A stretch of 64,000 nt of DNA, taken from Teredinibacter turnerae T7901 (GTDB taxonomy: Bacteria; Pseudomonadota; Gammaproteobacteria; Pseudomonadales; Cellvibrionaceae). The stretch lies in assembly GCF_000023025.1 (NCBI RefSeq), contig NC_012997.1, positions 4,461,125 through 4,525,124 of the forward strand, given 5' to 3'. This document shows positions 2,886-5,238 of the stretch, piece after piece; position 1 is the first letter of the stretch, and each line of letters opens with the position of its first letter. Position numbers and translations under genes: made by a program. Under the pieces are notes generated by a model that saw only the letters and a program-made list of their open reading frames with translations, was not told the DNA's origin and made no database searches.

Positions 2886-3779
2886 TTATTCTTCTTTTTC
2901 CGAAGAAGGCAGATAACGGTAAACCGTCGACCGGGATGTGCCCAGTAATTTAGCTGCCTTTACCTGGCTACCTTCTGCACGTCTCATAGCATCCTGCACG
3001 TAGAGTTCTGCGAATTGTACCTGGGCTTCTTTAAGTGAGAGGCTGGGGTTATAGAGCATCGATGAAATCGCTTCCCATTGACGGTGCTCCTCGGTGCTCG
3101 GAATCATCGCCAACAATTTGAACAAGCGTTGCTGCGACTCCGTGTAAAACAACACTGCCATCATAAAGCTGGTTTCGATTGAGACGATAATGGTTGCGTT
3201 CAAATGCCAACCGAACTGCATCGCAACAATTACGAAAATGACCGATACGATTATTGGAGCAACGGCCACCAGCAAAATTGTCGATTTTCGACGAGTCATT
3301 ACATCTTTACCACGTCGCGCCAACAACAGAAGAATTAGCGCTCCCAAACTACCCAGTACAATAGTGAGCTGAAGAACCGGATAGAGCGGACCTGCATGAC
3401 GGGTGATGGAATATCCTATGGATTCCACACCATCTATTGCCAACCCTGGAATAGAACAGGATGCAATTGCGAACACTGCGATCAAAGCAATACCGTGATC
3501 GAGATATCTATTAGATAAGACACTGAGTTTTGCTGCGTAATGAAAAAAGAATGCAACAGTTAAAATCGCGCAGTTGTAGTACATCGTCATAAAAAATAAT
3601 GTACCCGCAGGATTTTTAAGTGATATCATCAATGCCAATTCAAAGATATTTACGCCGCAAAGGCCTACAAAAAAACCCAGTAGACTTTTGTCGACTTTTC
3701 GCAACGCCTTCCAGCCCAAAATAAACAACGCAATTTTGGCCGAGATGGCAACGATACTAGGTAAAAGATATAGCTCCAT
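2886..3779 (-). CDS. Seven-TM membrane protein with C-terminal Fis-type HTH (putative membrane-bound one-component regulator)
   Basis: About 297 aa from the ATG at 3779, 5 bases after the stop of the ketosynthase gene; an upstream TTG at 3809 would overlap that gene and is less likely. Roughly seven hydrophobic segments cover residues 1-215, an arrangement like the 7TM sensor modules of some kinases. A cytoplasmic tail follows and ends in a Fis/HTH_8 helix-turn-helix (AAKLLGTSRSTVYRYL). There is no kinase, AAA+ or receiver domain, so if it regulates transcription it must do so from the membrane. Its strict linkage to a FabH-like synthase suggests it senses the product of that enzyme. The HTH call is firm; the ligand-sensing role is inference. 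Confidence 0.75.
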   Translation of the reverse strand: MELYLLPSIVAISAKIALFILGWKALRKVDKSLLGFFVGLCGVNIFELALMISLKNPAGTLFFMTMYYNCAILTVAFFFHYAAKLSVLSNRYLDHGIALIAVFAIASCSIPGLAIDGVESIGYSITRHAGPLYPVLQLTIVLGSLGALILLLLARRGKDVMTRRKSTILLVAVAPIIVSVIFVIVAMQFGWHLNATIIVSIETSFMMAVLFYTESQQRLFKLLAMIPSTEEHRQWEAISSMLYNPSLSLKEAQVQFAELYVQDAMRRAEGSQVKAAKLLGTSRSTVYRYLPSSEKEE

Positions 3780-3784
3780 AATTA

Positions 3785-4789
3785 TTAAAAGACCATGCCT
3801 GCTTGACAAACAGAAAGACCACTACCGGTTCCCATGAGCAACAGCTTGCTTCCGCGCTCGGGCCTGTTGAGATGCATGTTCACAGGAAACGTAGCACTGG
3901 TCAAGTTACCAAACGACGGATAGGTGATTGGCGCGCAATCTATTGATTTATTTGCAATAGACACTAAAGCCTTGTGCGGTTTTTCACCAACCTGATGGCA
4001 GTAAATGCGGTCAATCTCTTCAGGTTTCCAAGCAAGTGTAGCGTAAGTTTTTTCGATCAACTTCTTGTGGAGCTTGGCAATCTGCAGGCTAATCTCCCTC
4101 ATCAACATCTGGCCGTCGTAGCCTTCATGGGTATGGCGGTAGTAACATAAATTAGCGTGTTCACCTTCTGAGTAGCTCTGCATCCAACGCAGCCCCTCAC
4201 CGGTCTCCACATTGCTTCTTTGGATTACCATCGCACCGCCAGCGTCACCCACGGTCAGCGCACCCAGCATTCGCTTGAACGCCTCTTTACTCTTTTCGTC
4301 GCGCAAAATTTTAATGGCTTCGAATAAAACCCGGCTGGGCTTTTCTCCAGTACAAACCAATACATTATTAGCTGTGCCGTTGGTGAGAAACGCATTAGCA
4401 ATAGACAGGCCATCCATAAATCCATGGCAGGCATTTGTCACATCAAAACAACTAGACTTTTTCGCGCCAATCTCCACCTGCACACGGTGCGAGGTGGCCG
4501 GCTCTTGCCAATCCCGATCGATGCCGCAATAGATAATCAGATCGACTTCCATTGGTGTAATACCAGCATCCTTCAGGGCAACTTCTGCTGCCTTTATTGC
4601 CATGTCCGAGGGGAACATATTTGCCTCTGATATGCGCCGCTCGATAATTCCGATCCTTTTGGAGATGTAATCCACGGGAGTGCCAAACCGGGTGCTACCG
4701 ATTTCGTGCATCAAGTCGTCTGACAACACACGTTGTTCTGGAAGATAAGCACCAATGCCCGCGATCTTAGATTTTCCGATGATTTCCAT
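3785..4789 (-). CDS. FabH-like 3-oxoacyl-ACP synthase III (KAS III) family condensing enzyme
   Basis: A 334-aa thiolase-fold enzyme with an intact KAS III triad: Cys121 in NACHGF, His265 in CHQVGEKPH, and Asn295 in SFGNLTSATFP. It also has the glycine-rich GDAGGAMV segment. KAS III enzymes perform decarboxylative Claisen condensation of an acyl-CoA with malonyl-ACP. This copy is not in a fatty-acid (fab/plsX/acpP) cluster; it is followed 5 bases later by a 7TM-HTH regulator gene. The ATG at 4789 was chosen because GAGGG lies about 9 bases upstream; a longer in-frame extension to 4840 has no clear ribosome site. FabH relatives such as PpyS and DarB make signalling pyrones or resorcinols, so a dedicated secondary product is plausible. 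A housekeeping FabH paralogue remains possible. Confidence 0.85.
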   Translation of the reverse strand: MEIIGKSKIAGIGAYLPEQRVLSDDLMHEIGSTRFGTPVDYISKRIGIIERRISEANMFPSDMAIKAAEVALKDAGITPMEVDLIIYCGIDRDWQEPATSHRVQVEIGAKKSSCFDVTNACHGFMDGLSIANAFLTNGTANNVLVCTGEKPSRVLFEAIKILRDEKSKEAFKRMLGALTVGDAGGAMVIQRSNVETGEGLRWMQSYSEGEHANLCYYRHTHEGYDGQMLMREISLQIAKLHKKLIEKTYATLAWKPEEIDRIYCHQVGEKPHKALVSIANKSIDCAPITYPSFGNLTSATFPVNMHLNRPERGSKLLLMGTGSGLSVCQAGMVF

Positions 4790-5037
4790 GATATAGCCCT
4801 CAAAATAGGTTGTTTGTAGGAGTTGGAGAGGGTATCTCAAAAATGGAACGGCACTATCAAAAATGATTATGCTGTTTTAAAAATAGGCAATTGACACGAT
4901 AAATCAGCGGATTTAGCTTTAGGGAAAGGGGCGATTTGTGGCTTTCGCCCGCCTCTGGTGCATGTAGAAATGCGCCTGGGAACAAACAACGAAAATAATC
5001 TAACGAGTTAAATTTAAACGTCAGTAAGGAGCATACT

Positions 5038-5238
5038 ATGCCAACACTTATTTTTAAAGTCGACTGCGGAAAAGCCGATCAACCAATCAAACACGATCTC
5101 CATACCCTGGAGAACAAAGTGCAAGAAGCACTGGCAGAACTCGATTATGACTACCTGGTATTTGACATTGAAGCGACGGATGAGTCTTTACTCGATTTGG
5201 AGTATCCGGAAGAGTACCAACACGCTGTTGGATCCTAA
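5038..5238 (+). CDS. Small acidic conserved-looking protein of unknown function
   Basis: A 66-aa acidic, probably cytoplasmic protein with no TM or signal peptide. It is rich in Asp/Glu, especially in its C-terminal third (VFDIEATDESLLDLEYPEE), and has a short amphipathic helix region in the middle. A strong ribosome site, AAGGAG, stands 8 bases before the ATG. It is transcribed alone, divergently from the FabH-like operon. I do not recognise the family. The ribosome site and the sensible composition make it a real gene rather than a chance frame. Confidence 0.65.
   Translation: MPTLIFKVDCGKADQPIKHDLHTLENKVQEALAELDYDYLVFDIEATDESLLDLEYPEEYQHAVGS

Follow-up and report, generated by a model that had tools for sequence, protein, structure and literature searches.

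Do two adjacent genes of Teredinibacter turnerae T7901, one encoding a ketosynthase and the other a membrane protein which carries its own DNA-binding domain, constitute a complete system of chemical communication? The pair lies in a stretch of 64,000 nucleotides, referred to here as the window, of a genome that consists of a single contig of 5.19 Mb. Both genes are on the minus strand, with a gap of 5 bases between the stop of the synthase and the start of the receptor, which confirms the coordinates and close spacing reported in a preliminary description of this DNA. The features of the locus, in window positions, are:

3785..4789, minus strand: OleA-type ketosynthase of 334 aa, proposed signal synthase (ATG at 4789, stop at 3785)
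2886..3779, minus strand: 7TM-Fis protein of 297 aa, proposed receptor and transcription factor (ATG at 3779, stop at 2886)
4499..4504, minus strand: Glu96-Pro97 codons, matching the Glu-Pro of OleA and invariant in 43/43 aligned family members
4427..4429, minus strand: codon of Cys121, the predicted acyl-accepting cysteine (from the alignment)
3995..3997, minus strand: codon of His265, catalytic triad (from the alignment)
3905..3907, minus strand: codon of Asn295, catalytic triad (from the alignment)
3144..3779, minus strand: membrane domain of seven helices, residues 1-212 (matches HisKA_7TM and is modelled as a GPCR-like bundle)
3384..3452, minus strand: TM4-TM5 loop and hairpin, residues 110-132, SIGYSITR region (conservation and model)
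2895..3035, minus strand: C-terminal Fis-type HTH of the receptor, residues 249-295 (Pfam and AlphaFold2 model)
2900..5200, no strand: segment probably shared recently with the sister species G136 (identity in 100-base windows)

The synthase shows the Pfam domains ACP_syn_III (4.1e-13) and ACP_syn_III_C (8.9e-9), and the earlier label of FabH-like is right as regards these KAS III-type domains and too loose otherwise, since the catalytic signature and the tree put the enzyme beside the OleA type. The triad, previously described as intact, is present and invariant wherever it is covered in the family alignment A3: Cys121 in 43/43, His265 in 43/43 and Asn295 in 42/42 sequences. The NCBIfam fabH model gives 130.9 bits, below its cut-off of 292.1, and the best-scoring model, PRK09258, gives 187.8 with a cut-off of 285. 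The best matches among solved structures are a chain with the name FabH (2ebd) and several entries around 3row; in the printed alignment the E-P of the family is aligned with an E-P of 3row, and 2ebd shows F-P at this place. We take 3row and its neighbouring entries to be Xanthomonas OleA. The E-P is also kept in 54 of the 55 frames of 53 OleA-like control loci, and the residue at the Glu96 position differs in all 18 other KAS III examined, which come from the own genome and from family genomes. According to passages of PMC7064751, the OleA Glu is at position 117, has a Pro after it in every aligned OleA protein except two and is essential for condensation; passages of PMC4578411 describe that it reaches across the dimer into the other subunit, and that mutation of the matching Glu of PpyS, E105, abolishes the product. 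Because Glu96-Pro97 is invariant, the tree position is on the OleA side and the fabH cut-off is failed, the synthase most likely joins two acyl thioesters head to head and does not start fatty-acid synthesis. A housekeeping FabH is ruled out by the fabH score, by the differing residue in the other KAS III, by a second KAS III-like gene in the own genome, which lacks the Glu, and by congeners without a close synthase: G135 and G137 (99 and 100% complete, respectively) have no receptor, and the synthase search gives one weak match in G135 (1.6e-4) and none in G137. These last two results also speak against the possibility, raised in the preliminary description, that this gene is the only KAS III of the genome and essential for fatty acids.

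The tree contains 99 rows: 54 paired synthases, 27 OleA-like sequences, taken from the even-numbered loci only, and 18 other KAS III, with no PpyS sequence. The set of 54 pairs does not include L189 and L226, which duplicate L190 and share a contig with L074, respectively, nor L192 and L230, which are copies of own-genome loci in sister species, nor L071 (truncated synthase), nor L084 and L087 (synthase frame-broken), and locus L232 was left out of the analysis. Fifty-three of the 54 paired synthases form one clade of their own (bootstrap 100, aLRT 99), separate from and outside the OleA clade. The adjoining group comprises 25 of the 27 OleA-like rows, with modest support for the join (90/72), and the 18 other KAS III are placed apart. 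The single paired synthase outside the clade, L223 of G807, is a long-branch row.

The receptor shows a HisKA_7TM domain (PF16927) just over the Pfam cut-off (6.9e-7, 29.8 versus 28.6 bits) and a Fis-type HTH_8 domain (PF02954; 1.4e-6, 28.4 bits with a cut-off of 22), and no kinase domain was found by Pfam. Among 10 receptor relatives, HisKA_7TM passes in two, is listed below the cut-off in two and is unlisted in six. The AlphaFold2 model, a fold prediction which had been suggested as a check, shows a bundle of seven membrane helices followed by the HTH (mean pLDDT 88) and agrees with the Pfam domains, and thus the initial reading of about seven TMs, a C-terminal Fis-type HTH and no kinase is borne out. 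In the model the membrane part resembles a GPCR, as a bundle of seven helices with a conserved hairpin; Foldseek gives no match for this resemblance at E <= 0.001, and helical bundles easily score high. Conservation in the receptor is highest in the TM4-TM5 hairpin and the TM6-TM7 loop; the hairpin is predicted to be periplasmic, and the conserved residues Lys15, Asn44 and Glu47 are inside predicted helices. Long-form receptors of about 830-900 aa are present in L077-L083, L086, L089 and L220, with a 7TM part, a GAF-like part, a coiled coil and a regulator of NtrX-like type whose ATPase motifs are degenerate.

The distribution of the pair was followed in genomes at increasing distance. A receptor profile including the HTH (A1) matched 387 of the 390 genomes of the order sample; among the matches listed, about a dozen rows are full-length and the following ones cover the HTH only, therefore the later searches used the membrane part alone. 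Within the family (144 genomes), a close synthase is present in 13 genomes, all 13 of which have the receptor, and the receptor is present in 15, the own genome included. All 18 full-length synthase copies of these 144 genomes show the receptor adjacent downstream; G037 has two further synthase fragments at contig edges; the contig continues downstream of one of them, and there the receptor is present. The genome_contigs scan gave 527 relatives, of which the best 80 form the named loci. Among these 80, the receptor is downstream in 26 of the 27 nearest loci, whose hosts belong to Exilibacterium, Pseudomaricurvus, Marinomonas, Motiliproteus and MAGs, and in none of the other 53, OleA-like, some of which end soon after the gene. 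The 27th nearest locus, L087, contains broken remnants of both genes, and L071 and L084 have an interrupted synthase frame, with the receptor present downstream. The co-occurrence search that the preliminary description had proposed thus found every full-length family copy adjacent and no OleA-like control so, and the pair is conserved beyond close relatives, across the family, the class sample and the named loci. In the class sample the receptor membrane domain is in 9 of 369 genomes, including the own one, and of the 16 matches to it in this sample, 12 lie next to a synthase and four do not; the phylum sample gives 2 of 398 genomes, the own genome and one weak match. The order, class and phylum searches are samples, and from the class and phylum counts the module looks mostly limited to Gammaproteobacteria. 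In the curated pairs the gene order is co-directional with the synthase first in 53 of 54 and convergent in one. Plasmid carriage was considered with the synthase alone and rejected: 312 plasmid records match it, all below 60% identity, 12 of them listed at 27-31%. No paper on such a synthase-receptor pair was found in searches of open-access literature.

The histidine kinase at 374-2647, which the preliminary description had considered a possible member of the system, is downstream of the pair in the window and likewise in the sister species G136. Its homologues are away from the pair in G134 and are present in the pair-less genome G137, and its third-codon identity to G136 is 0.75, compared with 0.92 for the synthase and 0.97 for the receptor. 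The kinase was therefore rejected as a partner, and the conserved two-gene module of the original interpretation is supported without it. Clustering of neighbours gave no third gene family recurring across pair lineages; surrounding synteny is common to one MAG clade of pair loci. The three commonest neighbour families of the OleA-like loci, found in 21, 20 and 14 of the 53, have no match among the genes of the pair loci, and oleB, oleC and oleD neighbours are absent there, the Ole labels of the control neighbours having been given from sequence starts and not by family search. Upstream of the 54 synthases no common operator-like palindrome was found, the best inverted repeats being mostly near the shuffled level. 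A palindrome, TGTAGGA...TCCTACA, recurs in one MAG clade (L067, L068, L069, L073 and L227, and in altered form L076); it is possibly a dispersed repeat.

Eight genomes carry more than one pair: three diverged pairs are present in each of G039, G040 and G657, and two in each of G114, G134, G146, G864 and G769. Tandem and solo receptors also exist. One solo receptor belongs to the own genome (G000:C1:3898413-3899078; L191 8414-9325), with no synthase in the 17 kb around it. Across the 54 pairs, synthase and receptor distances are correlated with r 0.86, a value that includes shared ancestry and was reached in 0 of 2000 shuffles. When receptors are swapped within genomes only, the true pairing ranks within the top 71 of 6912; genome by genome it is the best in six of the eight and is slightly beaten by a swap in two, therefore pair-specific co-evolution is only modest.

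The comparison of the own genome with G136 shows an identity of 0.94-1.00 in the 100-base windows at about 2900-5200, and of 19 windows printed outside this segment, 16 have an identity under 0.92, the values extending from 0.70 to 0.98. The third-codon identity of the genes flanking the pair is far lower than that of the pair (0.76 for a gene of 1367 aa, close to the value of the kinase), and for this reason the similarity is best explained by a recent exchange of the cassette between the two sister species, rather than by constraint on the proteins. A 66-aa open frame on the plus strand (5038-5238), divergent from the synthase, is within this segment.

Two IMG/VR contigs, L189 and L190, contain an intact synthase-receptor pair (L190 5980-7943); they are 99.4% identical across 11,985 bases and thus represent one phage type. 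The genes around the pair encode a repressor-like protein, exonuclease VIII, a RecT-like protein and a polymerase exonuclease, the pair being between the repressor-like gene and the recombination genes, and an internal virion protein (3.8e-127) and tail fibre genes are farther along the contig. In the tree the phage synthase clusters with synthases of the own genus, and it shows 61-63% identity to three of them. With the receptor model as query, viral protein models gave no match at E <= 0.001. The pair remnants of L087 (2128-4701) are downstream of a predicted transcriptional repressor (phrog_4), in a prophage-like context. According to part of a 2026 preprint (PMC13345283), prophage LuxI/LuxR pairs steer lysogeny, so phage communication is already known, through other chemistry.

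The adjacency, the chemistry, the behaviour as a module, the exchange as a unit, the phage copy and the receptor architecture favour a signalling reading, and the pair is probably a compact two-gene module of cell-to-cell communication. For its product, ligand, topology, DNA binding and regulated genes we infer the following course. An acyl group would be loaded onto Cys121, and Glu96, whose equivalent in OleA enters from the other dimer subunit, would deprotonate the loaded chain, which would then be condensed with a second acyl thioester from primary metabolism. The product would be a small diffusible or membrane-soluble lipid of the beta-keto acid, ketone or pyrone type, for which no further dedicated enzyme would be needed. 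The receptor would bind it in a pocket beneath the conserved TM4-TM5 hairpin, approached from the periplasm or the membrane, and binding would change the state of its own cytoplasmic Fis-type HTH; a single chain would therefore be both receptor and transcription factor. The more specific proposal, that a two-chain lipid signal made by an OleA-derived enzyme is read by a GPCR-like receptor-transcription factor, with diverged versions in cells and in at least one phage, is made tentatively, with somewhat less than an even chance. Against signalling count the patchy distribution (15/144 family, 9/369 class and 2/398 phylum genomes), the lack of a shared operator, the four of 16 class matches without a synthase and the modest co-evolution.

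The main rival is a lipid-homeostasis switch within one cell, in which the enzyme makes a membrane lipid, a long-chain ketone or beta-keto acid, and the receptor senses its level, or the state of the bilayer, and adjusts transcription. It agrees with the role of OleA, which opens a pathway to membrane hydrocarbons (described in part of PMC7064751), with a sensor placed in the membrane with Lys15, Asn44 and Glu47 inside its predicted helices, and with the fact that every pair would be a feedback loop without an export step; however, the two or three diverged pairs per genome, the solo receptors, the patchiness within one genus, the interspecies exchange and the phage copy fit a social or selfish signal better, and such a switch is considered the less likely reading. 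Patchy distribution and exchange are also typical of natural-product loci, and PyrS, a relative of PpyS, makes pseudopyronines (as given in part of PMC4578411), so the pair could make an antimicrobial ketone or pyrone, with the membrane protein regulating this pathway or serving as a self-sensing switch; across lineages, the neighbourhood of the pair shows no recurrent family for transport, tailoring or resistance, receptors without a nearby synthase exist, and this origin is improbable. That the enzyme and the membrane protein are functionally unrelated neighbours is hardly credible, given the 18/18 family copies, the 26/27 nearest loci (best 80 of 527) and the 0/53 controls, the differing genomic contexts and the convergent pair in which both genes are still adjacent.

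Returning to the communication module, the known system nearest to it is PpyS/PluR of Photorhabdus, in which PpyS condenses two acyl chains into the photopyrone signal; as described in part of PMC4578411, it has in common with the pair a FabH-derived ketosynthase, an essential Glu (E105) and a dedicated receptor. This analogy, already drawn in the preliminary description, is strengthened by the invariance, in the synthase family, of the Glu on which both PpyS and OleA depend. PluR is LuxR-like, whereas the partner in the window is a membrane protein of seven helices that ends in a Fis-type HTH, and the window enzymes form their own clade beside the OleA-like ones (in a tree without PpyS). OleA, of the ole hydrocarbon and beta-lactone pathways, provides the best solved relatives besides FabH, and the Glu-Pro and the triad are kept; in contrast, the window enzymes are in a separate clade and, instead of the recurrent neighbours of OleA-like genes, show the receptor gene. 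CqsA/CqsS and LuxI/LuxR are two-gene systems of synthase and receptor. They share with the pair this logic, the paralogous and solo receptors and the phage carriage (prophage LuxI/LuxR, in part of PMC13345283), but their enzymes belong to another class and the window receptor is neither a kinase nor a soluble LuxR protein. The HisKA_7TM kinases (PF16927) have the membrane domain whose family cut-off the window protein passes; the latter lacks the kinase, and its output is the Fis-type HTH or, in the long form, the degenerate NtrX-like regulator.

If the reading is true, the pair would represent a class of chemical signalling made of two genes only, a synthase joining fatty acids and a membrane receptor that itself regulates genes without recourse to a kinase or a soluble LuxR protein, and hydrocarbon-type ketosynthases would gain a signalling role. 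It would also offer a seven-helix receptor from nature that is genetically linked to the enzyme making its ligand, and the search for the ligand thereby becomes tractable. Through the phage copy, communication among phages would gain a second chemistry, and a phage could gauge the abundance of infected cells with its own copy of the pair. The module is small enough for full testing in Escherichia coli. Finally, a distant pair in L223 (7375-9562) shows a Glu-Pro ketosynthase beside a 7TM protein with no Fis-type HTH evident by eye.
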